Of a DNA stretch of 64,000 nucleotides, positions 26,081 through 51,760 are shown one piece after another. The stretch covers positions 1,302,001-1,366,000 of the forward strand of contig JARGXX010000092.1 in assembly GCA_030374765.1 (NCBI GenBank). Reading direction: 5' to 3'. The DNA is from Agarophyton chilense. Its lineage: Eukaryota; Rhodophyta; Florideophyceae; Gracilariales; Gracilariaceae. The position numbers and the translations under genes were made by a program. Under the pieces are notes generated by a model. That model made no database searches. It had not been told where the DNA came from and saw only the letters and a list, made by a program, of their open reading frames with translations. The stretch's first letter is position 1, and each line of letters starts with the position of its first letter.

Positions 26081-26801
26081 TGTAGGACAACGCTTCGAGC
26101 GGAGACACCACGAAGATGTTCGGGATCTTCCTCTCTTGAGAGACACGCCTCAGGCGAAGGAGACGCGTGCCAGCGGAGCACAGAAACAGAGCCACTCTGG
26201 AAAGGCACGACGAAGTCGGGTGTAAGACCGAGGCCAATCCGGCGGGATATACCTAGAGTGTTTAGGTGAGCACGGCACAGTCCGGGGTGTGACCAATCCT
26301 GAACGGAGCGGTATCACGGTGGTTATCGGAAAAGGAGCGAGGAAACACTCGTATGAGGTGGAAGAGCGGGGTGAGTGGTGCGGCCACTCACGAGAGCCAA
26401 AAAGGAGAACGAGAGAAAAACGGGGGCGAACCCCTATACAGGGGCGAGACTACGACAAGTGTCGGCGATTAAATATGAACCCACTGTGGTGGTAGCACTC
26501 CGGTCGACAGAGGGGTGGATGAACTAACGTGCGACGGGTGCTCACGCAGTATGCGGTGAAGACGCGCCGACGGCGAAGAGTTCAGAGCCAAGACTCTCTC
26601 CTTGGAATCTCCCAAGAGGGTGTTTACTGGGAAGCAGTGCTCAACCTCCTATGTAGTGTGGCGCGTGGCCCCTGACAGTGGGCGCGGGCCCGAAAAATAG
26701 ACACTAAATAGCGATAGCGTAGCTAAATAAATACTAAAAAAACACTAAGTAATACTAACCATTATGTAGAATCCGGGCCACGTGTGGCACGCCTCGCACT
26801 C
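26081..26801 (-). repeat. 5' LTR of element A, truncated (721 of 889 bp)
   Basis: Matches B's 5' LTR almost base for base (a handful of differences in about 720) but stops at 26801, where host-like sequence begins. The first about 168 bases of U3 are missing. A short PBS-like stretch with cgacttag lies just left of 26081. Confidence 0.9.
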
Positions 26802-26821
26802 GAGCCCCGCGTAAGCGCGAT

Positions 26822-27984: not shown

Positions 27985-28149
27985 AACTGTTCTCCCGACT
28001 TAGAAGTTTGAGTCGAGCACACTCAGTCACGATTAATCTGAAAGAGGACTCACAAATTGAGGTTGATCTCAGTTGCCCTCTTTGAGGAAGTTTCTTGGCC
28101 CCAATAGCCGATCGGGTTTGGATACTCCTGTGTAACGGATTCTGATCTC
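27985..28149 (+). promoter_or_regulatory. Leader of element B with primer-binding-site-like sequence
   Basis: Immediately after the LTR, ctgttctcccgacttagaa (from 27987) corresponds to element C's tggtctcccgacttagaa at the same place. This is the position of the tRNA primer binding site. The B version has lost the clean TGG start. The gag ATG follows at 28150. Confidence 0.5.
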
Positions 28150-30210: not shown

Positions 30211-30220
30211 ATGTGGGAGT

Positions 30221-30266
30221 CTCCTCTCAAGGAGGGGCGCCCTGAGAGTCGAGGTTGACGGCGCCC
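30221..30266 (+). promoter_or_regulatory. Paired stem-loops 10 nt after the gag stop, element B
   Basis: Stem 1: CTCCT (30221-30225) pairs with AGGAG (30230-30234) around a four-base loop. Stem 2: GGGCGCC (30235-30241) pairs with GGCGCCC (30260-30266). Element C has the same two stems at the same 10-base distance from its gag stop, with one pair in each stem changed on both sides (T-A to C-G and C-G to T-A). Pol lies in the -1 frame relative to gag, so the structure may promote recoding or re-initiation. Confidence 0.6.
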
Positions 30267-33200: not shown

Positions 33201-33467
33201 CGGAACCGTGTCAAACTCCGCCGTCATGCGACGAAGTTGAAGCTGTTTCCAGCTCGCGCTCCATTGGAGTTTGTGGCCATCGATATACTCGGTCCCTTCC
33301 TTACCACTAAGCTAAATTACAAGTTCTTACTCGTAATTACGGATCGCTTCTCAAAGCTGGTCCGGACCGCACCATTACGGATGATCTCCGCTATGAGCGT
33401 GGCTCAAGCCTTCGTCCTACACTGGGTCTTCGTCTACGGTCCACCCGGTCAACCTGCTCTCCGATAA
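30246..33467 (+). CDS. pol: Pol of element B: protease, RT, RNase H, N-terminal integrase (inactivated)
   Basis: Open from after an in-frame TGA at 30243; no ATG lies near the start, as expected if pol is made by recoding. It has protease DTGA, RT (FGLTNAPATFQ, YLDD), RNase H, integrase zinc finger (HYSKLSGH...CTDCA) and AIDILG. RT motif A has Asn (AAC at 31713) in place of catalytic Asp. RNase H has Asn at 32556 (TNH) and 32685 (TQAN). It ends at 33467 through one extra C in the CCACCCGG run, before the SDNG motif. It differs from A's pol at only about three residues (for example K for E near 31348, H for L near 32044, P for T near 32747). Confidence 0.92.
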   Translation, partial: ESRLTAPKASKPRSPVKILSRKEAVNEVNSEHFSVLRRPWKRVSHNRFPDRVLVMAKRDYKVYADLGLSPQFMVRHLTVLDTGAGPIFVVEEVLPPALQSRIRRDHVPEVADANNKPLDTVGFIELVVRVGARVVKLDFVVCRKLAAPVILGCDFCDRFVEAIFPRQRRVEMEDGSSTPIVRRPLRRATKKYVPLLAAKEPGPNNRESNKLRVAASFCVPPESQMMVKVTSRQHGLRGLLPLSSLYDRHSLAIANGIVHVEPNQPFHVLIAKLGTVPQYLVKNQVIGSVMPHPIAMVPTKLTAADVLGLVHSKERDSSEPVSSPVPEVKPVTSGTQPISTSGDRPDPAQELEDLALSHVPESYRHRSRKLLRDFTTIWDGSLGDIATTEHRIDLLLDTRPISQHPYRAGPAARAEEKAQVDKILRAGFIEPAQSPWASPVVLAPKQDGSWRFCVDYRRLNAVTVKDVYPIPRMGEYIDSLGTATVFTTLNANWGYWQVPVRKQDQDKTAFACHSGLYRFKRMPFGLTNAPATFQRAIDILKARFKWRTCLVYLDDIIVFSDNLDKHLTDVRDIMTMLRDAGVTLKLNKCDFFINTVKYLGHVIRPGCVTIEETRVKSLKEAKEPRLQTKLRSFLGLANVYRRFIPHFADKAAPLKALLPKGQPPKLDPLTPVQTESFNSLKDYVVSAPILSLPKPVRPFTVDTDASDYQVGCALFQTAPHGERRPVGYWSRSLNVHDKNYTVLEKECLAVVWALQTLRPYLIGNHSFVFTNHASLRWLLSISEPSGRLMRWRPRLAEFDFDVQYRKGSCNTQANALSRLVSTGEALPVKDNEIPSFAVNGDDATIEDEERDTDSSDSGSELDDFLLSEDSEKPLPGKFVPITPEEMIPEQFADPFCAKVRAQLNGRGTHPFQVNDAGYLVRTVGSHPQIVVPHNLQSRVLRLSHYSKLSGHVGGRKLYLTLRRNFYWHYMAVDCYATVRFCTDCARNRVKLRRHATKLKLFPARAPLEFVAIDILGPFLTTKLNYKFLLVITDRFSKLVRTAPLRMISAMSVAQAFVLHWVFVYGPPGQPALR

Positions 33468-34845
33468 CGGGAGACAGTTCGCCTCTCGTTTCTTCGAGGA
33501 TGTGTGTCGCATCTTGGACATTAACAACCTGTTCACGACCACTTATCACCCCCAAACTAATGGGCAGGCCGAACGGTTCAACCGGACATTACTTGCGACA
33601 ATCCGTTCATACGTTGCAGACCACCCCAAAGATTGGGACTTGTTCACTGATGCGCTCACCTTTGCGTACAATACGCAGGTGTACAGGACAACTGGATTAA
33701 CGCCCTTCGAGCTGGTACTGTCCCGTACCCCACCGCCCGTGGCGCTGAAACCACAGCCCACGCTGGATACCTTTCCTTTACCGACTGCTTACCGCGAAGG
33801 GTGGAAAACTTGGCTCACGAAGCTCGTTCCCGCCGCACGGCGTTCAATGGGCCGAGCCAAGGCCGCTTACAAGCGTGAATTTGATGCCAGAGCCCCTCGC
33901 TCGCCGCCACGTCTCGCCCCCGACGGTTATGTATTCATCCGCAAGGAGTATTGGAACCCAGAGAAGGAGAAAGGCTACAAGCTGTCACCCGTTGCCGACG
34001 GCCCCTTTCGGGTTATTTCGGTGGCTCCGGACACTGTAGTTATTTAACTCGCTGGTAATCACGAACGCAGCTCTCGTGATCGCGTGGTATCGGCTCCTCC
34101 GCCTTTAACATCCCAACCTACTGGTGTGACTGCTCCCGTTGAAACGGATACATCGACCCCCTTAACCCAGGTCCACCTGCATCCCTACGCGTTACCACAT
34201 CCATCTCGGGGTTTGTCTGAACTTCCGCTACCCGCGGCGCCCAACCCGCAAGTAATCGTGTCACGCATTCGTCGCTCCTCCCCAGTCCAGTCGACGGACA
34301 CCAACCCCGGTGCATCTTCTAAGGAGGGGGAGGCGCCCGACAGCCGTCTTAATCCGGTCAATGCCGTCGCTGGAAACGCCGCACCGTCGCGTGTCATTCT
34401 TCGCCCGTCAGGGGTGCCTGATACCGACGTCCTGCACGACTCGATGCAGTCGCTACACAAGCCTCAGACCGCAGCTGCGGATAACGCCACCAACACTCGC
34501 CGAGGTGTCACCACATGTGCAACACGGAATGCAAATGCGCTCGACGCACTGCAGCCTGATACAGTACGAGTGGAAGACGCACCGCCAAGTACCCCGCACA
34601 GGGAGGCGGATACATCCACGGCGCCGACGCCGGACAGCCAGCCATTGGAACGCTCACGTGACTACACGGAACCTCGCCGTGGGACAGAGATTGTGCGACA
34701 ATGCGCCACCGCCCCAGCAAATCTCACCGCCGAAGCGAGCTTCACCACACCGCTTAGCGGAACGACCACCCGGGTTACCCGCCGGTGTGGGCCCTCCAAC
34801 CGGAGTGGGAAGCGCCGAAACAAGCCCGGCACTTGGGGAAAATGA
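33468..34845 (+). pseudogene. Integrase C-terminal part and tail, element B
   Basis: Integrase continues in the next frame (SDNGRQF, TYHPQTNGQAERFNRTL with the catalytic Glu). A TAA at 34045-34047 replaces the Glu codon present in A (VVIEL). The frame then continues from about 34048 through the proline-rich tail to 34845, where an extra T near 34691 has changed frame relative to A. The internal AAGGAGGGGGA at 34321-34331 is a copy of the polypurine tract. Confidence 0.8.
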
Positions 34846-35221
34846 ACTGCCGAAGTCGGGTCGACATTCTACTCAGCCAAGGACTGCCATGCGCGCTACA
34901 CGGTCCGACCGGAGCGAAGCCGCCCAACGCGTGATCACTTCGGTACCCCCTGGCTCAGGACGGTTACCACCCATAAATAGCGACACCGCCATACGGGATG
35001 GCCGGGAAGTGTACCGACAAGAGTTCGTGGTCGGACGCATTTTGGAGTACTCCTACCACCCAGAGGGTTATATCCAATACTTGGTCCGTTGGTACGGGTA
35101 CGGCCCCGAATGGGATTCAGACGAACCGATAGAGCACCTACCTCGGTCGAAGGTGGTACAGTATCATCGTCGTACAATCACGGCTTTGTCAGCTACCATA
35201 GACCGAGCCCAAGTGGGATAA
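34690..35221 (+). CDS. Chromodomain segment of element B
   Basis: Frame ending at 35221 carries EFVVGRILEYSYHP and YLVRWYGYGPEWDSDEPIEHL, the chromodomain, preceded by a Ser/Arg/Pro-rich linker. It is in a different frame from most of the integrase tail, as in A and C. Domain function: targeting of the integration complex to modified histone H3. Confidence 0.8.
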
Positions 35222-35433
35222 AAAGACACCCGATGGGGATAAAGGAACAGAAGATCTGGATAAGGACCCTTGGAAGAAGGAGAAGATGCACAGAAGGTCT
35301 GGAGAAGAGCACTCAGAAGAAGTGGAAGAGAATAAAGAAAACAAATACGTCATAGACGGAAGTAGTTTACTATTTTCGAAGTTGCTGCACACAATACCGC
35401 ACAGCGGGATTTACTAACCAAGATCACAAGGGA

Positions 35434-38400
35434 TTAGTTGGAAAAACCCGGATTGCCGTGCGCATCGACCGAATCGCTAGCGGAGTTACTCCCGCCGGTC
35501 AGGCGTGCCGAGAGGGCGTCTCTCATCGCACCGATGTCGCCGCTCGCCGCTAGCGGGTTCAGTCCAACACCCCGAAGGAACTGGGAGATCACGACCGCCT
35601 CTGGGCGTATGGGAACCTCGATAACTTCCGGTTCGTCCGGCAACGCCGCTGCCACTGGATCGATGACCGCACCTGCGTGAGTCGCTCCCTGCGCCGGCTG
35701 CGCCGTAGTATCGGCACCATCGGGGTCTCCCACGTCTTCCATGACTTCGTCGCCACGGTATTCGCCGGCCTCCTCCGGGAGATCATCACCGCCACAGGCG
35801 TGGTTGTAACGCAATGCGCTACTCGGGAGACCAGCCGCGGGCGGCGAGAGCTACACACAAGCAGAGCCTGGGAAGCCGGGGTCGGCTATCTGGCCCTAGA
35901 GTCCGCAACGACTCAAGAGAGACGTCGTCTCACAGGCGAGGAGTGTCTACTAGGCACAGACTCCTATCGTTCCACAGGAGCTCTTGGCGTCCGGAAGATG
36001 TGCTCGGAGTGGTGTCGATCCGACACGAACCGAAGTGATCGGCCTGGATATGCGCCGCGTATGAAGAGTAGCCGGGGCGAGCCCCGGGATTGTACCAGAG
36101 CCCGGACGAGCGCCACGACCCTAACGTCGGCAACGGCGCACCAACCACTTCACCTAACGGGTGGCGATAGCAAAGCAGGGCAAGCCCTGAGATTGTACCA
36201 GCGCTCAGATGAGAGCGTCTGCTTGGCTATGCCGACTGGCGCCACAAAGTGGTAATCACTCACACCCAACGGGTGACGATAGCAAAGCAGGGCAAGCTCT
36301 GGGATTGAACCAGCGCCCAGACGAATGCGCCTGCCTGGCTTTACCAGCTGCACCTGGAAGTGATACTCACTTATCAGAGGCTCCCGATCCACACCTCGGT
36401 ATCCAACGGATACGGGTCTACAATCTGCTCGGGCAGTAGAACTGCCAGCGGTCCAATAGACCGAGCGAAAGTGCAATGCGCCACGCGGCGACCGATGGCC
36501 GTGAGGGCAAGGACTGGACGGGGAATACTCGATAGGCTAAAACGCGAGAGGTACCTCTGCAGCAGTTGATCAGACTGCCGCCTGTCTGGTCGGCGTCGAC
36601 TGGGAACGAAGGTCTGATAACCCTATAGTCTCAAAACACGAACTAGTAGTTCGGAGGCCCCCTTTGCCTCTTGGACTTTACTTCTGTCTAGCCCCCGGCG
36701 ACCCGGCGCTCAAGTAATGCCGGCCGCTTAGCAGTTAGCCATTACGATAGATTACAACTAATAAATACAATTAAAAATTACAAGGCAACAGTGCAGAGCA
36801 CTGTATGGTGCCAACCACACGAACTAGCTGCCGGCCATTGCCACACGTATGACACCTAGCGCCATGCACGGTATTTCATCCTGGCAGTATGTCAGCTATT
36901 ACGGCGTCCTCACTGCTTACTGTAAGGAGGTCGGAGGAGGATGGCTACTTGTCCTCAATAGGGGCCCGGCGCGTTGCGTCACAGTAGTAGAAGTCATCCG
37001 AGTTGACAAACCCCACGGGGTGCCCGTATGATATGGCTCGCGGAGCCATCCGGAGTGCCGACGCCTCCGCCTCGGAGATCTCTTGCTGCTCCCATGGGTT
37101 AAAGAAGATGAGATCTCCCGCCGACGGCGTGCGACGCCCCGGAGACCGATCAGCCCCACCGGCTTCTTGACCACGGCCGCTCTGCCGGACAGGCACGACA
37201 GCCCAGTTGACACGCCCAATGATGTCGATGAGCTCCTGAGCTTCATCAGCGTTATTGACACCTCCAAGAGGGAGTTGAAGGTCCAGCTACCGGATGTAAC
37301 CACGCAAACGCGTAGGAAGATACCACAGTCGGGACTGGTCGTAGGCTTCCCACAAGCTGTACGCCGCGGCGCGGACTGCCCATTCGGTTAGGACCACGGA
37401 CCATAAGCCGGAGTGCGGATCCTCGATGAGGTACGATCCCAGATAGGAGACGACTGGAGGCAACTCCACGTAACATCCCCGGCACACCTCGACGGAAGAC
37501 CACCACCCAGGCAGGGGAACGTATCGCCCGAACTGATAGAAGGGACTAATCTGGTTTATCTCCGTGTTCTGATAAGGGACAAGGAACCCAAAGCGGGATC
37601 TGCCCCGACGCTCCTCGCGGATAAAGTTCTGTAACCACCGATATCGGGACTCACGACAAAGGTGACGGAACTCGGCCCGAATGATCGGACGGAGCCAGCA
37701 GATCGCTCCTGGACGCGCTCGCGGTTGACCGCGCCATGCGTAAGTTTCCAACGCCGCAAGGCGGTCACAATAGCCGATCTCACCCTGAGTCCGGTACATC
37801 CGTAGGTCAAAGCCGAATTCGTCGGGGATGGGGTATTGGAAGTTCGCCCGGGTGATCCGTGAGTAGCCGATGCGGACGAATATACAATGCGCCTCTTCCG
37901 CCGACTCGCGCCTTCGCTGCAGAATCGCGTGATCGGGAACCGCCACATGGCGTCGCCAGTCCCACGAAGTGGTGATCAAAGCCGGCAGCTCGCTCGGGAG
38001 ACGCGCATTGCCATCAGCATACGCGGCCACGAGTTCTTCGTCGAAGATCGCTGTCGGATGGAACCACGGAGCTCTCCGGAGAATCGCCGCATGTTGACGC
38101 GGGTTTAACCCGACGAGTTTTTCGTAACTGGGCCAGGTGTCTTCCGCAGGAGTAATGTGGCTTAAAGCTTCAACGGGATCCCGGGATCGGCTCGGCGCGG
38201 TTGACGAGGCACTCCCCCGCGGAAGGGGAGCCGAATAGAAACCGGAGAAGTAACCCCGGCGGGGATTATTACCACCGTTCATCGGGAGTACTGGTCGCCG
38301 AGGTATCGGGGTGTGTTCGCTGGAAGTTGGCGTACGATGCAGAAGAACGCTCAAAGTTCGAGGAGTGGTTACCGCGTTGGTGCGTTTGTCGTTCGGTTGT

Positions 38401-38486
38401 GCAGCTCTGCCTTCGACAGTCGAGTGGTCGCTGGAAGCGTTACGCGGCTTGCTTTTATGCCAGTTGGACTGTTGCCTCCCCGCCAT
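35434..38486 (-). pseudogene. Antisense accessory ORF of element B, interrupted by a TAG and a solo LTR
   Basis: Homologue of A's antisense ORF, read from an ATG at 38486. The TAG at 37287-37289 is the same as in A. The C-terminal half is further split by the solo LTR at 35805-36983, within the codons for the VNSD(D/E)FYY motif. The N-terminal region differs from A at many residues (for example RQQSNWHK for RQRSNRHK), while the core is nearly identical. It cannot make a full product here. Confidence 0.75.
35805..36983. mobile_element. Solo LTR (1,179 bp) of a third LTR family inside B's antisense ORF
   Basis: Absent from the matching place in A. Begins TGTAACGCAATGCGC and ends with the near inverse GCGCGTTGCGTCACA. 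It is flanked by gtggt (35800-35804) and gtagt (36984-36988), a 5-base duplication of the gtagt present once in A. TG...CA ends with a 5-base duplication fit a solo LTR left by recombination; a small non-autonomous element is the alternative. It has no coding capacity. The middle holds imperfect tandem units of about 111 bases (starting near 36158 and 36269). Confidence 0.8.
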
Positions 38487-38508
38487 GTCGACGGCGTGTT
38501 CGTCACCT

Positions 38509-38520
38509 AAGGAGGGGGAT
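38509..38520 (+). promoter_or_regulatory. Polypurine tract of element B
   Basis: AAGGAGGGGGAT directly precedes the 3' LTR start at 38522, the usual site of plus-strand DNA priming. Element C has AAGGAGGGGGAGA at its LTR border. Confidence 0.8.
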
Positions 38521-38521
38521 A

Positions 38522-39335
38522 TGAAGGACAATGCCCTTCAAGGGGGTTTCTTCGCAGGACTTAGAGAGTTCGCTCGCTTGAGGACTAGCTTGGTCTATGA
38601 CAAGCTATACCGCTATTGCGTGCTAACGGCCAGTTGGGACCGGAAGTGCACACTGGTGGAACACGTGGACTGCACGGATGCCGACGCTGGAGTGCGAGGC
38701 GTGCCACATGTGGCCCGGATTCTTCCTAATGGTTAGTATTACTTACTAATTTTTAGTATTTATTTAGCTACGCTATCGCTAGTTAGTGTCTATTTTTCGG
38801 GCCCGCGCCCACTATCAGGGGCCGCACGCCACACTACTTAGAAGGTTGAGCACTGCTCCCCAGTACACACCCTCTTGGGGGATCCGAAGGAAGAGAGTCT
38901 TGGCTCTGAACTGCTTTCCTTGAGCGCGTCTTCACCGCAAACTGCGTGATCGCCCGTCTCACGTTAGTTCATCCACCCCTCTGTCGACCCCAGAATGCTA
39001 CCACCACCGTGGGTTCATGTTTAATCGCCGACACTTTTCGTAGTCTCGCCCCTGTATAGGGGTTTGCCCCCGTTTCCTCTTGTTCTCCTTTTTGGCTCTC
39101 GTGAGTGGCCGCCTCACTCACCCCTCTCGCCCCCCTCATACGAGTGTTTCCTCGCTCCTTTTCCGACAATGGCCGTGATACCACTCCGCCTAGGATTGGT
39201 CACACCCCAGACTGTGCCGTCCTCACCTAAACACTCTAGGTAAATCCCGCCGGATTTGCCTCGGTCTTACACCCGACTCCGTCGTGCCTTTCCAGGCTGG
39301 CTCTGTTTCTATGCTCCGCTGGGACGCGTCTCCTC
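38522..39335 (+). repeat. 3' LTR of element B, left portion
   Basis: Starts TGAAGGACAATGCCC after the polypurine tract and runs to the TCCTC (39331-39335) at which element C inserted. The remaining part follows C at 50938. Differs visibly from B's 5' LTR. Confidence 0.88.
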
Positions 39336-40258
39336 TGTAGAGCAACGCCCAGTTAGGGGATACTTGAAGATGCAACTCATAGAATGAGGATTGAACCCTC
39401 CGAGGGTTATGACTATGATCCCCTCTAATGTGTGCTGAGGTGGCACTGTTTTCTGGTTAGAGTTCGCCTATGAAGTGAAAATTCGGATGGCCCATGGTTG
39501 GATTGGCCCCGTGATACACGTGGCTTAATTTTGGCACCGATTTTCGGATATTTGTTAGAACGTTGGACTTTTGGGCCCTGACAGTGGGATCTCCACGTGT
39601 ATGGCCCTGAGCAGGTGTGCACTACTGTAATTAGTAGAGTTTAGTTAGTGGGCCCTACTTAGGGAGACGAGATCTGACAGTCCGAAGCCCAGAGTAAATG
39701 GGAACGAAGGTTGGTCTTCGATACCTTTAGAGGTTCTTCGTCGCCATCGTTTCGGCCTTACAACCCGGAACGGGCTCTGGTTAGCAACGCCTACGTAAGG
39801 ACACGACTCCACTTGGAGAGTGCCCACGTTTGGGTTCCGTGCAACCACCCCCTTGGGACCGCTCAGACGACCTGCGTGCACGATACCCCGTGGGGGTTCT
39901 GCTTACTTGTTGCGTGCTTTTTGTGTTTCCTTTCGAGGACAGGTTTTCGCCCCTGTATTGGGTTTCTTTTGTTGTTTCGCCCCTTTTCTGGTTCTCGGGT
40001 CCGGTGCCTGTTAGTGCCCGACCCTCGCCCCGTTTTTCCTCTTCGCCGGATTTTCCCCCATTCTTTGGGATACCCATACCCATTCCCGATCCAACGGTTT
40101 CTACCCCTCACCTCCGTCGGTACTGCCGGAATCCCCCGTGGGAGTTACACCCCACACTACGGGTGTAACGGAGGGCTCTGTCTCTGAGTCTGCCTCCCCC
40201 AGGGAGCAAGGATTCGAACACCTTGAGAGCACTTCCCGTCGCCGGGTTTTGCTCCACA
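39336..40258 (+). repeat. 5' LTR of element C (923 bp)
   Basis: Starts TGTAGAGCAACGCCC and ends TTTTGCTCCACA, near-inverted termini. Offset from the 3' LTR is exactly 10679 bases throughout. Frames inside it occur twice in the window only because the LTR does. Confidence 0.95.
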
Positions 40259-40260
40259 AG

Positions 40261-40278
40261 TGGTCTCCCGACTTAGAA
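40261..40278 (+). promoter_or_regulatory. Primer binding site of element C (TGGTCTCCCGACTTAGAA)
   Basis: Begins TGG two bases after the LTR, as expected for pairing with the CCA end of a tRNA primer. The complementary tRNA end would read TTCTAAGTCGGGAGACCA; I cannot name the tRNA. The core CTCCCGACTTAGAA is kept in elements A and B. Confidence 0.65.
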
Positions 40279-40485
40279 TCCGTTCTCGGACTTTTGGGTT
40301 GGTCATCCACGTGTTGGAATATCTCTTGGAAGAGGAAGCACCGTCGTGAAGATTTGTTGTAGTGGTCTCCTTTGGAAAGGGTGGAATTGGTTTTTATTTT
40401 TGTTTTGTGTTACGTCATCCGTTCTCCGGGAATCTCGTGATCGAATTTCATAGTTACCCCGAATCGTCGGTGTCGTGTCTGCAGC

Positions 40486-42515
40486 ATGTCGCCGCCTACC
40501 CGTCGTTCCAGGACTGGATCGAACCTTCAAGCGGATTCAGAGCCCCCGGCCCTGCCTAGGCCGAGGAGCTCAATTCCCGAAGGTCGGAACATTCTGGTAT
40601 CGATCCGGACACTCGGAGAGCACCCTCAGTGGTTTCAGGTCCTCGAAAGGTCGTGGCTGTGGGCCCAGCTCCAGTGGTGGAGACCCCCTCAGCAGCACCC
40701 TGAAGTCGGGCTGACCCTGAATTACAGCGCCTGGAGACTCGAATCGATATCGCCAACGCGGCTCACGTCGAGCTCCTTCAGGAGGTTACTACCCTCCGCC
40801 TCAAGGTGGAGGACGCCCAGGTGCAGGGAGTCGCCGATGACCTTCGTACCCTGAGGAGGGATGTGAACTCCCTTTTGGAAAGCTTTTGTACCCCTGGGGT
40901 CTTTATCCAGGAGTACCGGAGCCTCGTGGAGGAACACCGCGTGCAAGCGGAACGCTTCCGAGCTCGGCTGGACACCCTCGAGGCCATTATCCGTATGGAC
41001 GGAGACGCGGAAGCCTCGAAGGATAAACCCGACGTTTCGGAAGACGAAGAACACCGCTCCGCTAAACGGGACCGCCGCAAGTCAAAGAAGAGGGTTCACC
41101 TCCAAGAGGAGTTATCGGATTCCGATCCCAATCGCTCGTCATCGAGTTCGTCCTCCGAATCTTCGGATAGTGAAGATGGACGCCGGTCATCCCGGGCGAC
41201 TCGGTCGAAGGCTACTTACACCTCTCAAGGGGCAATCCGTACCCGGAAGAAGGAAAAGAAACACCTTGGATTAAGGGAGCTGAAGCCCACGAATCCTCTC
41301 TATCGGAAGCTGCTATCGTACCGCTATTACCGGTTGGATAACCCTTCGGGAGATCGAACACCCCGCGGAACGGGTAAGGTCAAGGACTACATCAAAAGGC
41401 TGAGCATCACCCTACAGAAGAGGGAGTTCACAGGAACAGACCCAATTCTGGTGCTCGATTTCCTGGCGAGGTTCGTCCAGGAGGCTGACATCCTCGGTAT
41501 GAGTGAAGAGCAAGCATATCCTGCATTACCCTATTTCTTAAAGGGGATGGCTGAAGACCAGTTCAACTCCGTCCGTGGATCATCCCGAGCCTCGGAAGGG
41601 GGAGTCACGTGCTGGCCCGAAGCGGTGCAGTACCTCTTGAGGTCATACGCTACTGGAAATGCGATTCAGGAAGCAATCCTTGCATTAAGGGATACGCGGC
41701 AGAAGCCGATGGAAACCGAGACGGTGTATTCAACTCGCTTGAATAAAGCGTTTCACCGATGCGGGAATGTATTCCCCGCCTACGAGAGATGCACCATGTT
41801 TGTGGATGGTTTGGACCCCTCGATAAGGGCATTGGTTGCCCGACATCGGGAAGAGAAGCGCAAGCTGACCTACTTGGAACTGGTTCAGTACGCCCAGGCT
41901 GAGGGGGATACTCTCCGTGCCCGGCAGAACCGAACGAGTCGGCCGACACGTGCACTCCTCGCCGATGGAGGTAACTCGTCTTTGTCACTCGCAGGAGGCC
42001 CTGCCCCTGTGGGGGTCAATGATAACATTCGCTTCATGGGAAGTAACCCCAAATCTATGGGTACGTCTGAGTTGCCGTCGACATCCGCTCCGACTACGGA
42101 TGAAGACCCTGCGCTCTATACCCACGGACGGAGGGTGCCAGCCGCATCGCTACCTTTTGCGAATACCGCTGCTCGTTTCTCTCGCCCCGGATGGAGGGAT
42201 ACAGCACTACGTCGCGTGGATTCACGTCCACAACCGAACCCGGCAGAGCTGATTTGCTATTTGTGTTACCTCCGTGGTCACAAAGCACCAGACTGCACAT
42301 TTCCCCTGCGGGAGGGTTCACGAATTATCGCTCAGTACGAGGCTCTGACCCCTGAGGAGAAAGCTCGAGTCCCGAGTAGGTCCTATGAGGAACAAAGGAT
42401 ACTCCGAGCTCACCTTGCTGACAGGGATACAGAACTTGTACCCGCGAACGGGGAACAACCGGTCCCCTTCGAGGCAGCTGCACCGAATTCGGTGGGGTCC
42501 GCTTCGAAAAACTAA
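40486..42515 (+). pseudogene. gag: Gag of element C (frameshift and TGA near the N-terminus, rest open)
   Basis: The ATG at 40486 gives MSPPTRRSRTGSN, like B's gag start. The frame must shift near 40580-40595 and then meets a TGA at about 40700 before the long frame to TAA 42513-42515. The open part holds a coiled segment (LETRIDIANAAHVELLQEV), an acidic Ser tract, KPTNPLYRKLLSYRYY, ILVLDFLARFVQEADILG and SSRASEGGVTCWPEAV. A complete CCHC knuckle, CYLCYLRGHKAPDC, is present, unlike in A and B. Core identity to B's gag is high, so the families are sister lineages. Confidence 0.85.
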
Positions 42516-42525
42516 ACTTGGGAGT

Positions 42526-42571
42526 CTCCCCTGCGGGAGGGGCGTCTTCTAAGCCGGTGTTGAAGACGCCC
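42526..42571 (+). promoter_or_regulatory. Paired stem-loops 10 nt after the gag stop, element C
   Basis: Stem 1: CTCCC (42526-42530) with GGGAG (42535-42539), loop CTGC. Stem 2: GGGCGTCTTC (42540-42549) with GAAGACGCCC (42562-42571), ten perfect pairs and a 12-base loop. Position after the gag stop equals that in B. The pol frame (-1) is already open across the gag end here. Confidence 0.65.
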
Positions 42572-43489
42572 GAGGCGCTCCAGCTTCGCTCCCCAGCTGT
42601 GACTATCCTCTCAAGGAGAACGGCTGACACCGACGTTAACTCGGGATACTTTAGTGTCCTCCGTCGCCCGTGGATACGGTCCCGTAATCTCCGTATTCCG
42701 GATCGAGTTATGGTAATGGCCAAGCGGAATTATAAAGTATTCGCCGACTTCGGCCTGTCCAACCAGTTTATGGTTCGTCAAATATCTGTCCTGGATACAG
42801 GAGCCGCTCCTAACTTTATTCATGTTGAATTGTTACCCCCGCTGCTCCGGGTTCAAGTTCGTACCGGTCCACGTTTGGATATCGCCGATGCGAACAACAA
42901 TCCGCTACGGACACTGGGTACAATTTCCCTCATGGTGAGGTTAGGCTCCTATCTCGTTCAGCTAGAGTTTATTGTATGCAAGTCACTTGCAGCACCAGTC
43001 ATACTGGGTTGTGACTTTTGCGACCGCTTCGTGGAAGCCATCCGTCCTCGGAATAGAACTGTGGAACTCGAAGACGGGTCTACGATCCCAATCGTTCGTA
43101 AACCCTTAAAGGGAGCAGCGCGAACACGCGTTCCTCTCCCTGTCGTGCAGGAATCTGTGAAGAAGGACCCGGTGTCTACACGGGTAAAGGTTGCGAAGTC
43201 AGTGGCTATCCCGCCAGAAACCCAGGTTTGGGTCACAGTTGTTACCAAGCAAATTGGTGTGCATGTGGTACAACCGAACCCGTCTCTGTATACGCGGCGT
43301 CAACTCGCCCTTGCGAATGGGGTTGTCTCCGTGGAACCAGATAAACCTTTCAAGGTTTTGGTAGCCAACTTTGGAAAGACAACGCAGCATTTGGTCAAAC
43401 ACCAGATCCTGGGTTCTGTTCTTCCACACCCGCATGCGGTCGTACCTACAAATATCTCTATCGCAGAGGTCCTTGGTGTGGCGGACCCT

Positions 43490-43500
43490 AAGGAGGGGGA
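43490..43500 (+). promoter_or_regulatory. Internal copy of the polypurine tract, element C pol
   Basis: AAGGAGGGGGA, identical to the core of the 3' polypurine tract at 50002, in codons for Lys-Glu-Gly-Glu at the protease-RT boundary. Could act as a central polypurine tract. Confidence 0.4.
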
Positions 43501-46500
43501 GGACACTGCCGAAATCGCGGAAGACGGTGAGCATACAACTGCAGCTCCACACGCTGAACACTTTAAACCTTAGGAGGTTACGGCCCCTATCACAGGAGCA
43601 GACCAGACGGATCCTGTTCAGGAATTGGAGAAATGGGATCTCAACCATGTACCCGCATCTCATCGGGAGAAGCTGAGGCACATGCTTCGTGAATTTACCC
43701 CCATGTGGGATGGTTCCCTTGGAGCTATTGAGAGTACAGAACACCGCATCGACTTGTTACCGATCACTCGGCCTATTGCCCAACACCCTTACAGGGCTGG
43801 ACCGAAAGCTAGGGAAGAGGAGAAATCTCAGGTGGAGAAGATGCTTAAAGCGGGCGTAATTGAACCTGCCCAGTCCGCGTGGGCCGCACCAGTGGTGTTA
43901 GTTCCGAAACCGGATGGATCGTGGCGTTTCTGCATCGATTACAGACGCCTGAACGAGGTAACCATTAAGGATGTGTACCCGATCCCTCGGATGGACGAAT
44001 ACATCGACACCCTCGGGAGCGGTACTGTTTTCTCTACCCTCGACGCCAATTCGGGCTACTGGAAAGTCCCTATTAGGGAGGAAGATCGAGACAAAACGGC
44101 TTTCGTGAATCACCAAGGACTTTTCCGATTCTGGAGGATGCCTTTTGGGTTGACAAATGCCCCCGCAACGTTTCAACGGGCAATAGACATTCTGTTGGCT
44201 CCCTTCAAGTGGAGGACGTGTCTAGTGTATTTAGACGACATTATTGTCTTCTCCAACAACCTGGATGACCACCTCGAACACGTCAGGGACGTAATGAAGA
44301 TACTCCGCGACGCGGGAATCACCTTGAAACTCAAGAAGTGCGAGTTTTTCACCGATTCGGTTAAGTATCTGGGTCATATCATCCGTCCCGGACAGCTTTT
44401 AATCGATGAAGTACGAGTGAAATCCTTGAAGGAAGCAAAACACCCGAAAACTCAAACGGAGTTGCGATCCTTCTCAGGTCTGTGTAACGTGTATCGCCGA
44501 TTCGTCCCGAACTTTGTGGATATTGCCACCCCCCTCAACAGGCTCCTGACGAAGGGACAACCAGTTGAACTGGAACCTTTTGGCGACGCGGAAGCGTCTG
44601 CCTTCACGGCACTGGTGAATGCCGTAACATCACCGCCAATCTTGGCTCTACCCAATCCTGGGCTCCCTTACGAAGTGGACACCAATGCTAGTGCAAACCA
44701 AGTAGGGTGTGCACTGTTCCAATCCTCTGAGGATGGTGAACGTCACCCTATTGGGTACTGGTCACGTTCCCTGAATGTCCATGAAAGGAACTACTCGGTC
44801 TCCGAGAAAGAATGTTTAGCCGTTGTGTGGGCCTTAGCTACACTTCGCCCCTATCTGATGGGTACTCGTTTCAAAGTCCATACGGACCACGCATGCTTGC
44901 GTTGGCTCCTGGAGATCTCCGAACCCTCGGGCCGCCTTATGCACTGGCGTCTCCGACTGTCGGAATTCGACTTTGAGATCCTGTACAAGAAAGGGAAGCT
45001 GAACACTCAGGCTGATGCACTATCCCGCTTGGGAACCACAGCGGAAACGGAACCCTACGAGGACGATGACATCCCATGTTTTATGGTATCGGACCTCGAG
45101 GGAGGAGCTCAACCGCTGACGGATGATGTTTGTGACGATGTACTCGTCAACGAGAGTCTGGATTCGCCGACCGGCTCTTTTATATCTATCTCTCCAGAGG
45201 AGATGATGCGCGAGCAACAGCTCGACCCATTCCGTACACGGATTCGGGCTCGCCTCAACGCAGGATTTCAGTTACCTTTCGAGGACGACGATCAGGGTTA
45301 CCTAATCAGGACTGTTGGACCTCGCCCGAGGATAGTGGTGCCGCACACCCTACAACAGAGGGTATTACACCTCACTCACTATGTGAAGGTTGGCGCCCAC
45401 CCCGGGGGAAGAAAACTGTACCTCACGTTGAGAAGGGACTTTTACTGGCCGGCAATGGCATTCGATTGTTACGCCGTCAGACGGGCCTGCGCCAATTGCG
45501 CCAAGAATGACGTCAAACTACGGAAGCACTCTAAGAAGTTGACGCTGTTCCCGGCACGGGCTCCACTCGAATTCGTGGCCATAGAAATCCTAGGGGAGTT
45601 TATCAGGACGCCCCGAGGTCATCGGTATCTGCTTGTCATTTCTGACAGATTCTCTAAGCTAACGAGAACTGTGCCGCTGAAGCGGATCACCGCCGCTACC
45701 GTCGCGCAAGCGTTTTTGACCCATTGGGTGTTCGTATATGGACCGCCGGTGCAGTTGTTATCCGACAACGGAGGGCAATTCGCATCAAAGTTCTTTCAGG
45801 ATGTATGTCGAATCCTTGATGTAAGGAATTTATTTGTTACTACGTATCACCCTCAGGGGAATGGCCAGGTGGAGAGGTTTAACCGCACGATCCTCAACGC
45901 TTTGAGATCGTATGTTGCGGATCACCCCAAAAATTGGGACTTGTACACAGACGCTATCACGTATGCATAAAATACCCAGGTACATCGGGTTACATCGTTA
46001 TCCCCATTCGAACTGGTACTGTCGAGGACACCGCCGCCGGTCGCCATCGCGGCTCAACCGACGCTGTCGACGTACCCGTCACCGAGATTGTACCGAAAAG
46101 CCTGGAAGGAGTGGCTTACGAAGATGGTGCCGATAGCCCGGAAAGCAATGGACAAAGCTCAACGCGCCTACAAGAAGGACTTTGACAATCGGGTTCGCAA
46201 ACCTCTACCTCAGGTGGAGCCCGACGACTTCGTCTTTCTTCGAAAGGAATACTACAATCCTGAAAAGGAACGTAGGCACAAGCTTTCGCCAATTGTGGAC
46301 GGACCCTATCGTGTGGTTTCTGTAGACCCAGACACGGTGGTATTGGATATCGCTAACCGCCACGAACGGATCTGCAGGGACCGCATCACACGAGCGCCCA
46401 ACCCAAATGTGGAAGTGGTGTCGGCACCAACGCCCTCCACAGGGGATGATTCAACGGAAGTGAACCCGTCAGGCGGAGATCCGAACACCCGCCGCGTTAT

Positions 46501-46648
46501 ACTTCCGCACACGGAACGTGGTTTAACCGACCTACCGGAAACTTCGGATACTCCCGAACCTGGGCCCGCTCCCTCAAGGGCCCAGTCAACGAACTCTTAC
46601 AGAGTTACTCCCCCACCGGAGGTAATCAAGCCTCCTGGCTCTCCGCCG

Positions 46649-46660
46649 AAGGAGGGGGAA
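46649..46660 (+). promoter_or_regulatory. Second internal polypurine-tract copy, element C integrase tail
   Basis: AAGGAGGGGGAA encoding Lys-Glu-Gly-Glu. Element B has the same motif at the corresponding place (34321) and A on the minus strand near 19740-19750, so the position is conserved between families. Confidence 0.45.
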
Positions 46661-47549
46661 GTGGACTTAGTTCCTTCGCAGGACGATGTTTCGGCGTCAG
46701 CCAGTCGCCCTAACAGGGAATCTAGTTCTCACAGTGAGACAGCGAGCCCGACCGAGCCGGCGACAGAGAAGTCACAACCCCAGCGTATGGGTAGCGACAT
46801 CACCGCCGACCCAGCCGAGCACGACGTCAGAAAAGATGACGAAAACCCGCCTAGGGAGAGTCGTGTGGAGAACTCCGCACCCGGAACGCCTACAGAGCCA
46901 ACGATCACCCGCCGCCGCTGACGAGACACTGAGGTGTCGCACACTCAAACCCCGCTTTCTCGGGAACGAGCTGTGTCAGCGGACCCGCACGGGGAAGATC
47001 TCGACGACGAGGTTGACCAAATTTGGCTCTCCGTTATGGAATGGGAATAGGAACTCCTATGGAGACACTGGAACCCTCAGGAATGGGAAAGAAATGAGTG
47101 AGACCCGTCGGGGACAGCTCAAGAGAGTGCTAGCGCGTGTTGAAAGCGCCACCTCACATCCGCTTGCGCAGTGGCAACCGGCGCCCGCCCATTTATGTGG
47201 CACACGTCGAATGGCACTGAGCCAATCAAAAGGCTCTGACGACCAACCGTCACGCAAACCGCCTCCGTCGCACGGCGCGTTGCACGAGAGCAACCTTCGT
47301 CCCCGTAGCTCGGGTTGACGTTGAAGTCTTACCCCCCTGAGATTGGAGACGCTACCGCGTCGCGGTTTCTCAACCGTCACGAAATCTAAGAACACCGTTG
47401 TTATCGGGAAAATCTCAGCTTTAAGAAGAATTCAAAACTGGGCCGTTTTGACTCCGTAGACGGAAGTTACAACGTAGCCCACAGGCCACTCGGCGCCGTT
47501 TTGACGAAGTGCTGAGACCCGCTCGCAACACGGAAAAGAACCCACCGGG

Positions 47550-47840
47550 GTGTGTCTAGACCCTACGTTGACACCCTCAAGGGAACTAGAGCGTTCCAAG
47601 ATGGAAGAGAAGCCCGAACAGGGAAAAGCGTACCCGCAGGAATTCGTTATCGATCGCATCGTGCGTCACATCTACACCCCCGAGGGAGAAGTTCACTACC
47701 AAGTCCGATGGTACGGATTCTCGCCTGATGAGAATACAGTGGAACCCATGGAGCACCTTCCGAGGTCTAAGGTTTTATCCTATCACCGACGCGCTCGGGT
47801 AACCTTGCCTCCAAATCTGGATCGTGCCCAAGTCGGGTAA
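47550..47840 (+). CDS. Chromodomain segment of element C
   Basis: Frame ending at 47840 contains EFVIDRIVRHIYTP, YQVRWYGFSPDENTVEPMEHL and PRSKVLSYHRR, the retroelement chromodomain. It is separated from the integrase tail (stop 46919) by about 600 bases with several stops. Whether it is translated as its own protein, by splicing, or is detached by decay is not clear. Confidence 0.8.
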   Translation: MCLDPTLTPSRELERSKMEEKPEQGKAYPQEFVIDRIVRHIYTPEGEVHYQVRWYGFSPDENTVEPMEHLPRSKVLSYHRRARVTLPPNLDRAQVG

Positions 47841-48319
47841 GCCACCACGGGAACTGGTGTGGATGCGACCTCAAAGTGAGGAAGATGTTGGACCTCTGAA
47901 GAGGAATTGAGGAGAGTATCCCGAGGAAAACGTATTGAGAGGGAATGTCTATTGGCCCTCGGCCTAGCGCCGTTAACCGGGGAACACAGCACCGGTTATC
48001 GGGACAGTTTATGATGAAAAAGGAAAAGAAGACCCACGAAGTGGAGAAGAAGATTAAGAAGAAGATTGGACCCTAGGAAGGGAAGAAGAGGAAGACGAAG
48101 ATAAAGAAGATCCTAAGAAGGAATGAAGAAGATGAAGTAGAAGTTAAGATCCTAGGAAGGAAGAAGAAAAGAAGTTATGCAAATATCAGAAGTTTACTAT
48201 TGTCGCCAAGCTATGGACTCTACAATTTCTCGAAGGCGGAACTACGGAAAGCCCGAGGAGGGACCCGCCCCACCGTTGGGATTCTTACCCTGATGGTACG
48301 CCGAGGCGAAAGCCAACAT
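47841..48319. repeat. Purine-rich GAA/GAAGAT tract between chromodomain and antisense ORF
   Basis: From about 48010 to 48180 the plus strand is dominated by imperfect gaagaagat and aggaagaag units. It lies between two convergent stops and would be a pyrimidine-rich 3' end for the antisense transcript. Elements A and B have a shorter purine-rich counterpart (about 18720-18780, 35265-35340). Confidence 0.6.
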
Positions 48320-49933
48320 CTAACTCACATCCGTCATACCCGGGGGAATCGGAATGCCCGCGTTCACGAGGCCTTGTTGCACACTATCCGCTTGCGGAGT
48401 GGCAACCGGCGCCTGCGCAAGGGTGTTCACACCCCACCCGGGGGGAGCAGATGGACCGCCACCGGATGCATTCGCCGCCGCAGCTGAGGTCGTTCCCACT
48501 GGTTGGAAGGGTGCAGATGGCTCCACAGGGAGGACTCCACTAGGAGCTGGCATGTCGTTATCCAACGCTGGATCGTCCAGGTCTACTGGAGGCTCGTACT
48601 CGTAATCGTCGGTATAAATGAACCCCGTCGGGTGTCCCACCGGCATCGGTCGAGGCGATTCAATCAGCGCCCGTGCTTGCGCCGCGCTGATGCGAACCCC
48701 TTCGAAGGGATTGTAATAGACCCAGTTACCGGAGCCCGGATCGTACCGGCCAGGAGACTTGTCTCGCGCGGATCCTTCCCCTGCGGGCTGATTTTCCAAT
48801 GGAACTCGATCCCATTGGGTGTTGTCGATCACGTCCAAGATTGGATACAGGTCCTGCACGATGCTGGCCGAACCCAACGCTGGGACAAGGTCGATCTGAC
48901 GCATAATGGTCCGTAGCATCGGAGGAATATACCAGATACGGAAATGGTCATGAGCATCCCAGAGGAGGTGCGCCGCTACGCGGGCTGCCCACTCGGCTGC
49001 AACGAGGGCCCAGTATCCCGATTTCGGGTCGTGCATCAAACGAGACCCGATATAGTAGATGCATGGGGGCAGTTCAGCAAAGCACCCTCGGGGGACCTCG
49101 ACCTTACTCCACCAAGATGGAAGGGGCACGAATCGCCCAACCTTCGCCGTGTCACGGATACACTCCAGTTCCACGTGAGGATACGGGACAAAGAACCCGA
49201 AACGGGAGCGCAAGCGGCGCTCGAAGCGCACGCGTCGATCGAGCCCATACTGGGTAAACTGCCGTTGAAGGTACCTGAATTCAGCCCGAAGGATGGGACG
49301 ACTCCATTGGAGCATATCTTCTCGGAGAGGAAAACCCGGTCCGCGGAACTCGGCTTCGGGAAAGGCTGCCAGGTTATCCCCGTAGGAGACCTCACCGTAC
49401 GTGCGGTAATAGGCGACATCGAACCCGTACTCCGGGGGAACCAGATGGTCAAAGCGTGACCTCTCCAATCGCTGGTAGGCCAGAGCCGCCATCGCTGCGC
49501 GCGCCTTGTCCAGGGACTCCCCGCGACCGCAGTATTCGGTAAGGGGACTCCACCTTCGAAAGGATTCGTTTGAGATCCAACCTCTGGAGTTTGCTACCAA
49601 GGGCATCGCATGAGCGGAGTTCCACGCCACCGCGTTAATGTCCAAATCCTCCTGAGGATGTCGGTTGCTCGCCGAGGCGGAAGGTTCGGTACCTGACGGA
49701 GCCGCATCCAAACCGGAGAAATATCCACCCTGCTGGGGAGCTTCGTTGTCCGCAGGCGCGGAGACCGATGGCCCCGAGAGTGGGTTGAGGACGTATGGGT
49801 TCATTCCCTTGATAGGGCTGGTTGAGACTGTTGTTGCGAGAAGTTGCTTATCGCCGAAAGTCGGAGGAGTAGAAGAAAGTTGTACCGATGTGCCGGTTTT
49901 GTGGCGATCCTCAGAAGTGGTGAAGGACCCCAT
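48320..49933 (-). CDS. Intact antisense accessory protein of element C (537 residues)
   Basis: Read opposite to gag-pol from an ATG at 49933, about 80 bases from the 3' LTR; the frame reaches 49972 only through GTG. It aligns over most of its length with the antisense ORFs of A and B: YFSGLDAAP, YGFDVAYYRTYGE, RPILRAEFRYL, RSRFGFFVPY, GRFVPLPSWW, VPRGCFAELPP, GSRLMHDPKSGYW, EWAARVAAHLLWDA and NPFEG...VGHPTGF. The N-terminus and acidic/Pro-rich C-terminus vary. The core is rich in Arg, Trp, Tyr and Pro, with no signal peptide or membrane helix and no known domain recognised. An antisense promoter in or near the 3' LTR would be needed; TATATATA lies at 49945-49952 but is close to the ATG. Confidence 0.85.
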   Translation of the reverse strand: MGSFTTSEDRHKTGTSVQLSSTPPTFGDKQLLATTVSTSPIKGMNPYVLNPLSGPSVSAPADNEAPQQGGYFSGLDAAPSGTEPSASASNRHPQEDLDINAVAWNSAHAMPLVANSRGWISNESFRRWSPLTEYCGRGESLDKARAAMAALAYQRLERSRFDHLVPPEYGFDVAYYRTYGEVSYGDNLAAFPEAEFRGPGFPLREDMLQWSRPILRAEFRYLQRQFTQYGLDRRVRFERRLRSRFGFFVPYPHVELECIRDTAKVGRFVPLPSWWSKVEVPRGCFAELPPCIYYIGSRLMHDPKSGYWALVAAEWAARVAAHLLWDAHDHFRIWYIPPMLRTIMRQIDLVPALGSASIVQDLYPILDVIDNTQWDRVPLENQPAGEGSARDKSPGRYDPGSGNWVYYNPFEGVRISAAQARALIESPRPMPVGHPTGFIYTDDYEYEPPVDLDDPALDNDMPAPSGVLPVEPSAPFQPVGTTSAAAANASGGGPSAPPGWGVNTLAQAPVATPQADSVQQGLVNAGIPIPPGMTDVS

Positions 49934-50001
49934 TGGGAGAGAAGTATATATAGTGACCGGAAAGCGAGACACCCGCGGCTCGGAATGTTCTTCCTCGTCT
50001 T

Positions 50002-50014
50002 AAGGAGGGGGAGA
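50002..50014 (+). promoter_or_regulatory. Polypurine tract of element C
   Basis: AAGGAGGGGGAGA directly before the 3' LTR start at 50015; priming site for plus-strand DNA. Confidence 0.8.
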
Positions 50015-50937
50015 TGTAGAGCAACGCCCAGTTAGGGGATACTTGAAGATGCAACTCATAGAATGAGGATTGAACCCTCCGAGGGTTATGACTATGATCC
50101 CCTCTAAGGTGTGCTGAGGTGGCACTGTTTTCTGGTTAGAGTTCGCCTATGAAGTGAAAATTCGGATGGCCCATGGTTGGATTGGCCCCGTGATACACGT
50201 GGCTTAATTTTGGCACCGATTTTCGGATATTTGTTAGAACGTTGGACTTTTGGGCCCTGACAGTGGGATCTCCACGTGTATGGCCCTGAGCAGGTGTGCA
50301 CTACTGTAATTAGTAGAGTTTAGTTAGTGGGCCCTACTTAGGGAGACGAGATCTGACAGTCCGAAGCCCAGAGTAAATGGGAACGAAGGTTGGTCTTCGA
50401 TACCTTTAGAGGTTCTTCGTCGCCATCGTTTCGGCCTTACAACCCGGAACGGGCTCTGGTTAGCAACGCCTACGTAAGGACACGACTCCACTTGGAGAGT
50501 GCCCACGTTTGGGTTCCGTGCAACCACCCCCTTGGGACCGCTCAGACGACCTGCGTGCACGATACCCCGTGGGGGTTCTGCTTACTTGTTGCGTGCTTTT
50601 TGTGTTTCCTTTCGAGGACAGGTTTTCGCCCCTGTATTGGGTTTCTTTTGTTGTTTCGCCCCTTTTCTGGTTCTCGGGTCCGGTGCCTGTTAGTGCCCGA
50701 CCCTCGCCCCGTTTTTCCTCTTCGCCGGATTTTCCCCCATTCTTTGGGATACCCATACCCATTCCCGATCCAACGGTTTCTACCCCTCACCTCCGTCGGT
50801 ACTGCCGGAATCCCCCGTGGGAGTTACACCCCACACTACGGGTGTAACGGAGGGCTCTGTCTCTGAGTCTGCCTCCCCCAGGGAGCAAGGCGTCGAACAC
50901 CTTGAGAGCACTTCCCGTCGCCGGGTTTTGCTCCACA
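50015..50937 (+). repeat. 3' LTR of element C (923 bp)
   Basis: Same length as the 5' LTR and nearly identical. Differences seen by eye include G for T near 50106 and CG for AT near 50891. Confidence 0.95.
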
Positions 50938-51018
50938 TCCTCCGCCTGAGGCGTGTCTTTCAAAAGAGGAAGATCCCGAACATCTTTGTGGTGTCTCCGC
51001 TTTAAGCGTTGTCCTACA
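50938..51018 (+). repeat. 3' LTR of element B, right end
   Basis: 81 bases from the repeated TCCTC to GCGTTGTCCTACA complete B's 3' LTR after the element C insertion. They match the end of the B and A LTRs with a few changes. Confidence 0.88.
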
Positions 51019-51760
51019 ACAACCTCGAGGGAAGCGTAATTAAGAATCCGTTACGAAAGACTACGGGGGATGAACCTCAAGCACCATTACGGTGATTGAA
51101 ACCGTTCAGCTCACCGTGCGGCATTACCAAACGGTATAGTGAATCCCGCACTGGCGACTGCTATAATGTGTTCTACCACACTGCCAAGCACACTAAGGTA
51201 CAGCCACAGGGCGTGGCTGTCGCTAGGACGGGGATCTGTAGTATATTGAGCTACACCGAGGAGGAAATAATGCCACTTGTTGAAAATTGATGTCTGCTGG
51301 CATGCACTGTGTACTACAAGGGTGTAGTTAGCAGTTGGTATAGCTTTTTGCTAATTTAGTATGAGATATATAGGTTTAAGTAGATAGGAAGGCGCACCTC
51401 AAATGCACTTTCCCGTCGCAATGCAACGAGGTGCGCTACCGTATATCGTGTGGCTTATCAGATATATATCTTCACCAATCATGGCCGCACGTGTAACTAT
51501 TGTAAATTTAAGCACCTACTAGACTAAGCAAACCCTTTTTGATTTTTACAGTCCAGCATAAAGGTAAGTCTAGTGTTTTTACAGTTTTCTGGACCGCGTG
51601 CGTTATGAATCACCGTCTACCAACGCGATATCAGTTTGCTCGCCGTTTCTGTTGCACTTTTAAGTGTCTAGTGCAGCCACACCTTACATGTATCTTCAAT
51701 CTCCGTCTTCTAGGTCAAATCCGTTGCGTGCTCTCTATAAACGACAGTTCCTACACCTTG
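51019..51760 (-). other. Right flank of element B: upstream part of the split host gene, mostly unassigned
   Basis: On the minus strand the first about 50 bases continue the reading frame of the host exon at 26822-27095 (codons for VVFRNGFLITLPSR), up to a stop about 20 codons upstream. A cccccgtag acceptor-like site in between suggests an intron boundary. Beyond that I see no gene in about 700 bases. Confidence 0.4.

Follow-up and report, generated by a model that had tools for sequence, protein, structure and literature searches.

A conserved antisense gene between pol and the 3' LTR in Ty3/Gypsy elements of the red alga Agarophyton chilense

Introduction

Antisense ORFs between pol and the 3' LTR are already known from plant and fungal LTR elements, and antisense genes are known from HTLV and from a mollusc element. 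The plant aORF-3R elements, which include Grande, RIRE2, Retand (with TRP28, PF04195), and PvRetro13, are described as carrying a protein gene antisense between pol and the 3' LTR that is present in most copies of a family (PMC7264820, PMC11963269). For Grande, an antisense promoter upstream of gene23 is reported (PMC7264820). The Boty element of Botrytis and Sclerotinia is described with an antisense ORF between pol and the 3' LTR (PMC7264820). HBZ of HTLV-1 and APH-2 of HTLV-2 are antisense retroviral genes, and the promoter in HTLV is placed inside the 3' LTR (PMC7264820, PMC11963269). In the Steamer-like element MchSLE-1 of Mytilus, the 3' LTR is reported to drive an antisense RNA, and its ORF to be expressible in cell culture (PMC10974842).

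Here we describe an antisense gene in LTR retrotransposons of Agarophyton chilense. The analysis started from a 64,000-nt stretch of genomic DNA (assembly GCA_030374765.1, contig JARGXX010000092.1, positions 1,302,001-1,366,000), hereafter the window, which contains three such elements (A, B, and C). The algal elements can be likened to Grande, RIRE2, and PvRetro13, known here from their descriptions, by the position and orientation of the gene. Retand, in contrast, belongs to a non-chromovirus lineage, whereas the algal elements carry a weak chromodomain and the members scanned had no TRP28 match. Boty, also likened by description, shares the gene position but is fungal. HTLV is a primate retrovirus, and the algal protein is without a bZIP or other Pfam domain. 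MchSLE-1, compared by its description too, is a mollusc element. No antisense gene in red-algal LTR elements was described in the titles and abstract openings of the papers listed by searches of literature available without subscription. The protein family looks new, as does its occurrence in red algae, in agreement with a preliminary description of the window, which had claimed an unrecognized protein in red-algal elements; the protein had no Pfam, PDB, or fold match.

Results

Anatomy of element C

Element C (39336-50937) is an LTR retrotransposon that sits inside the 3' LTR of element B. Its 5' LTR (39336-40258, plus strand; 923 nt, TG...CA) differs from the 3' LTR (50015-50937, plus strand) at 3 of 923 positions, and the repeat TCCTC flanks the element on both sides. 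The gag ORF (40806-42515, plus strand), in which a CCHC-type knuckle near the C-terminus was read by eye, is followed by pol (42518-45970, plus strand), which encodes the protease region, RT, RNase H, and integrase and is interrupted in the window copy, where it consists of two ORFs. The best PDB match for C pol was Ty3 Gag-Pol (E 5.2e-101). The sense direction of C is fixed by the polypurine tract (50002-50014, plus strand), located immediately before the 3' LTR. Features expected of a Ty3/Gypsy element were found, namely TG...CA LTRs, a target-site repeat, a polypurine tract, and the order RT-RNase H-integrase.

The antisense ORF of C is located between pol and the 3' LTR on the minus strand (48320-49933). 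It extends from an ATG at 49933 to a stop at 48320 and encodes 537 amino acids; a GTG start at 49972 would give 550. The distance from the first conserved ATG to the 3' LTR is 82 nt, and the stop faces the end of pol. The coordinates and placement claimed in the preliminary description were thus borne out. This was not the case for its statement that the 537-residue ORF is intact. The intact C-type copies (e.g., L003, L004, L005, L007, and L061) encode 618 amino acids from the same ATG, whereas in the window copy 55 internal residues (165 nt) are missing, among them a conserved stretch that begins with APWFHP and ends with LPGGLP, and its C-terminus is 26 residues short of the 618-residue protein. 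Among 37 aligned C-type copies, the 165-nt gap is common to the window copy (L001) and L002; the antisense ORF is free of indels in 34 of the 37 and carries a 1-nt indel in L068. L001 and L002 are separate insertions, because the alignment between them ends at about the end of the LTR. The shortened ORF was either itself copied, or the same stretch was lost twice. Since the deleted variant is found in two insertions, the full-length antisense protein is not needed in cis. The window copy is a shortened derivative that was probably mobilized with help from other copies.

Elements A and B

Element B consists of a 5' LTR (27096-27984), gag (28150-30060), pol (30255-33467; protease region to the integrase zinc-binding domain), a pol-tail ORF (34310-35221), a polypurine tract (38509-38521), and a 3' LTR (38522-39334), all on the plus strand; the 3' LTR is interrupted by element C, with its remainder at 50938-51019. 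The antisense ORF of B (37287-38531, minus strand) has 414 codons from a TTG, followed by a stop, and the homologous sequence continues with further stops. Element A runs on the minus strand, with a pol (20598-23810, minus strand) that is a near-identical mirror of B pol. The antisense ORF of A (16719-18632, plus strand) has an internal stop after frame codon 414 and is then open to codon 637. The stop after frame codon 414 is common to A and B, and the further stops occur only in B. Homologues in A and B, matching C in their place and in their orientation relative to gag-pol, had been claimed and were found. The five core motifs quoted for the protein were all located in C, and they were also located in A and B, partly past the stops of these two ORFs.

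The B pol-tail ORF ends in a weak chromodomain (Pfam Chromo, E 4.2e-5), which at 23.8 bits is below the cut-off of 25.1. The C-type copy L004 had a chromodomain match of 18.4 bits, likewise below this cut-off, and in the tested tail ORF of window element C, no chromodomain was found with Pfam. The assignment of A, B, and C to the chromoviruses is weakly supported. Chromodomain-bearing Gypsy elements outside the chromovirus clade are described in Ectocarpus (PMC12477816).

A and B share an inverted repeat of 8.5 kb (18265-26805 and 27260-35801) that is 98.9% identical, with a spacer of 454 nt, and the outer parts of the two elements are only 94.8% identical. This arrangement suggests a palindromic duplication, or gene conversion between two elements lying head to head. 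The region of B between pol and the antisense ORF (36151-36350) contains two 88-nt copies, 112 nt apart and 83% identical. Elsewhere in the window, an open Tc1/Tc3-type transposase of 331 amino acids (8589-9584, minus strand; DDE_3 and HTH_Tnp_Tc3) was found, as well as a 417-residue ORF (82-1335, plus strand) with an RNase H domain marginally above the Pfam cut-off, which is perhaps from a non-LTR element.

The antisense frame is coding

The antisense frame is a real protein-coding gene that is conserved as a protein, well beyond chance. Judged from sequence, the strongest evidence for coding is the comparison of codon positions between C and B. Over 608 aligned codons, the C and B antisense proteins are 37% identical, and the nucleotide identity at first, second, and third codon positions is 0.492, 0.558, and 0.319, respectively, so that third positions are near random (pS 0.73, pN 0.48). 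Of 216 identical C/B residues (Met and Trp excluded), 143 are encoded by different codons. The two families therefore share a protein with near-random third positions, as expected from the earlier claim that conservation is at the level of the antisense protein.

These same observations bear on the possibility that the antisense RNA itself matters. Convergent transcription would then yield double-stranded RNA by which the element is tuned or silenced, and the frame would be open only incidentally. The gene is head-on to pol, with the open pol-tail frame of the B-type copy L024 ending ~215 nt from the antisense stop, and non-coding antisense transcripts are described in other elements (PMC7264820). 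However, an RNA role alone would not preserve a reading frame, and here the protein is kept while C/B third positions are near random, with 51 residues invariant in ten proteins. Conservation at the protein level argues against antisense RNA as the only product, and we consider an RNA-only role very unlikely.

Substitutions within families were compared in 37 C and 29 B copies, with w denoting dN/dS; these copies were picked by protein similarity, which favors open copies. For the antisense frame, w was 0.61 in C (n = 37) and 0.65 in B (n = 29), and this frame contained 0.6 (C) and 1.6 (B) stops per copy, compared to 9-27 in the other five frames. At codons 180-420, local w was 0.24-0.55 in C and 0.45-0.59 in B. 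High local values were observed in the C windows starting at codons 60 and 420 (1.04 and 1.27) and in one B window (0.95). The mirror sense frame of C had a pairwise w of 0.56, lower than that of the gene (0.61), with about 21 stops per copy. On the internal branches of C (88 changes), the N/S ratio of the gene was 0.70 of expectation, and 11 of 200 randomizations were as low; one other forward frame had a ratio of 0.75, and the mirror sense frame one of 0.51. Because there are ~21 stops per copy in the mirror frame, we read its low ratio as a shared third-position effect. On the internal branches of B (315 changes), N/S was 0.76 of expectation for the gene (3 of 200 randomizations) and 0.95 for the mirror frame. 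On the C internal branches, 3.0 new stops were expected and none appeared. In the same B loci, the open pol-tail frame, which should be coding, had a w of 0.96; therefore, dead copies blur the within-family w values. The preliminary description had proposed dN/dS as a check, and the ratio was below 1 in the 37 and 29 copies, though within-family substitution counts alone are a weak, unsharp test of coding.

The sense strand was also considered. Open sense frames overlap the gene (180 amino acids in 33 of 37 C copies and 283 amino acids in 18 of 29 B copies). Their w was 0.88-0.98; over the stretches concerned, that of the antisense frame was 0.38-0.77. This rules out an overlapping sense gene as the cause of the conservation and agrees with the claim that the sense strand has no gene at this locus. 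The overlapping frames, together with the mirror-frame w within C, are what could be cited for a chance antisense frame held open by composition or by a sense-strand gene. In addition to the difference in w between the two strands, the number of stops in the mirror frame speaks against such an origin, as do relatives at 35-51% identity, one of them named from another species. A chance frame is hardly tenable.

The nucleotide identity of C loci was 0.97-0.98 over most of the ORF, 0.95-0.96 near the ORF start, and 0.91-0.94 in the LTR; past the antisense stop, it was 0.96-0.97 directly beyond and 0.91-0.93 further on. In B loci, it was 0.91-0.96 over most of the ORF, 0.85-0.89 at the ORF end, and 0.80-0.90 on the pol side. 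In C, indels numbered 0.04 per kb and copy in the ORF, as against 6.2 for the LTR and 6.6 for the spacer on the pol side; this contrast is exaggerated because the copies were chosen by protein match. The first ATG is conserved in 35 of 37 C copies and a later one in all 37. In ranked lists, stop-free stretches were found in 56 of 81 antisense ORFs (mostly 408 amino acids) and 36 of 58 pol regions (mostly 781 amino acids). The antisense ORF and pol are therefore similarly preserved.

Linkage of the antisense gene to the elements

A 40-base string of the antisense ORF was found at 238 genome sites, and a 40-base RT string at 274 (two mismatches at most). Among the matches listed, an RT site on the opposite strand was located upstream in 66 of 100 antisense-ORF sites. 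The distance from RT to the antisense ORF in these 66 listed pairs was 5.02-5.19 kb in 55, 3.49-3.76 kb in nine, 4.10 kb in one, and 5.96 kb in one. As for the remaining sites, 33 were without an RT site among the matches listed, and one had only a same-strand RT, 7.8 kb away. There were two same-strand pairs in this listing: in one, the RT had its own antisense partner, and in the other, the ORF had its own antisense RT at 5.1 kb. Homologues found only in sense orientation had been named as a case that would refute antisense conservation; across the pairings made from the ORF and pol sides, the three same-strand pairs were explained by a neighboring element. When viewed from the pol side, 25 of 58 places had an antisense-ORF place 2257-2455 nt downstream among the matches listed. 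One other pol place was near only another element's ORF, and 32 had none among the matches listed.

The sub-group of C elements with the distance shortened to 3.49-3.76 kb (9 of 66 listed pairs: L004/L069 and eight other sites) appears to be an internal-deletion form that has been amplified. The integrase frame of L004 passes directly into the chromodomain.

Of the features that characterize aORF-3R elements, the presence of an ORF that lies between pol and the 3' LTR and runs opposite to gag-pol was found in the window elements, and its family-wide conservation, like that of other element proteins, was found in the C and B families. The identity between C and B proteins was 51% for gag, 55% for the protease region, 64% for RT-IN, and 47% for the antisense protein over the aligned part.

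Relatives of the antisense protein

A search with the window protein returned P0001 (metagenome, 51% identity) and P0002 (Gracilariopsis chorda, 39%). The search with P0002 added P0003-P0005, whose sources are probably metagenomes, and P0006 from Agarophyton chilense. In the source genome, P0006 was matched at 100% over 502 residues, which supports the red-algal origin of the elements, and the other copies listed were matched at 87-91%. A profile search returned P0001 alone. The relatives were 35-51% identical to the query, and 51 columns were invariant in an alignment of ten proteins (four C and B family copies and P0001-P0006). Further families of the protein were found in the genome by searches with P0005 and P0006 (e.g., C2:1421739-1423244 and C22:1088147-1089268), with typical open frames of 611 and 652 amino acids. 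As judged by these similarities, the protein family is present in two window families, at least one more family in the genome, Gracilariopsis chorda, and metagenomes. The protein search needs shared 5-residue words, and absence of the antisense protein elsewhere is therefore weak evidence.

The gene could have been a host gene that was captured in reverse by an ancestral element and retained as cargo. The database entry for P0002 is a hypothetical protein from Gracilariopsis chorda, and the antisense protein has no link to gag (hhalign probability 0.3%), as would suit such an origin. However, C-type copies number in the hundreds (238 pattern sites), the relatives in the genome, among the matches listed, belong to multi-copy families, and neither Pfam nor PDB sequences nor any other named protein gave a match. 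Among the matches listed in the genome, no stand-alone host copy of the gene was found. Retained host cargo is thus quite improbable as an explanation, and host capture may be the remote origin of the antisense gene.

Features of the antisense protein

Searches of Pfam and of PDB sequences gave no convincing match to the antisense protein. TRP28 (PF04195) was not matched in the three window ORFs, seven aligned members, and five homologues, and the genome-wide search gave one sub-threshold place, away from the antisense-ORF copies listed. HBZ carries a bZIP domain. The antisense protein had no bZIP match in Pfam, the search by which likeness to HTLV HBZ was judged. Similarity to the element's own gag was rejected as well (hhalign probability 0.3%). 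Two pattern-based scans of IMG/VR contigs gave no relative; in one of the scans, ten stretches fit a pattern, but none of these matched by tblastn.

The predicted fold had a pLDDT of 38.3 for the full protein and a mean pLDDT of 59.7 for the core, which is low confidence. A fold search with this low-confidence core model, which included BFVD, returned no match. The N-terminal third is variable in the alignment, with little structure predicted in a very low-confidence model. The core contains R-rich conserved motifs, and the tail is acidic (net charge -6 to -21). Lysine is rare in the antisense family, with K/(K+R) of 0.02-0.17 (e.g., P0004 and P0005), compared to 0.27-0.29 in gag, 0.37-0.41 in pol and the protease region, and 0.23-0.55 in four other window ORFs. 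No membrane segment was found, the highest 19-residue hydropathy among eight proteins being 1.44. An Env-like protein was ruled out by the antisense orientation and the absence of a membrane segment.

A gene of another mobile element or of an algal virus that was inserted backwards and then incorporated into the element would be consistent with the opposite orientation, the absence of gag similarity, and the occurrence in more than one family. For the antisense ORFs of plants, recombination with an unknown virus is raised (PMC11963269). Against this, no relative was found in IMG/VR (the two pattern-based scans), among the BFVD folds (low-confidence model), or in Pfam, and we regard such an insertion as unlikely. 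It concerns the origin of the gene and is compatible with the explanation that we favor, an accessory protein of the elements.

Discussion

We propose that the gene probably encodes an antisense accessory protein of Ty3/Gypsy elements, whose antisense mRNA would begin within or close to the 3' LTR and which would act in trans. Since the reading frame is kept, the protein must be made, and an antisense mRNA is therefore required. This mRNA would start in or beside the 3' LTR, most simply in the LTR as in HTLV and MchSLE-1, because the first ATG of C is only 82 nt away; an antisense promoter is accordingly presumed in the 3' LTR of C. When the minus strand of the C LTR was searched for eukaryotic promoter words by a simple scan, two CCAAT but nothing resembling TATA turned up; neither the C nor the B antisense ORF was followed by a poly(A) word.

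The protein is presumably soluble and may act in trans, at a step of the element cycle that is nuclear or involves nucleoprotein. Candidate steps are the control of element transcription, RNA export, and the entry of the integration complex. A role as a nuclear regulator or as a partner in the nucleoprotein complex is a guess by analogy, modeled on what is proposed for the antisense ORFs of plant Grande and Retand. The functions named in the preliminary description, which are regulation by convergent transcription, a structural role, and silencing escape, are likewise speculative.

More tentatively, and with slightly more doubt than conviction, we suggest that in gracilarialean red algae, and probably in others, several families of Ty3/Gypsy elements could depend on this antisense-encoded protein family as an obligatory accessory factor, one that arose independently of the TRP28, fungal, molluscan, and HTLV genes. 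If this were true, LTR elements would have come repeatedly to an antisense gene under the control of their 3' LTR, and these genes would have a regulatory logic in common. LTR elements in which an antisense gene is conserved are few, and those described here add a deep eukaryote branch to them, with a protein family that has no recognized relatives. The hundreds of copies, more than one family in a single genome, and many open frames make these elements a good system for questions of the placement and function of such genes.
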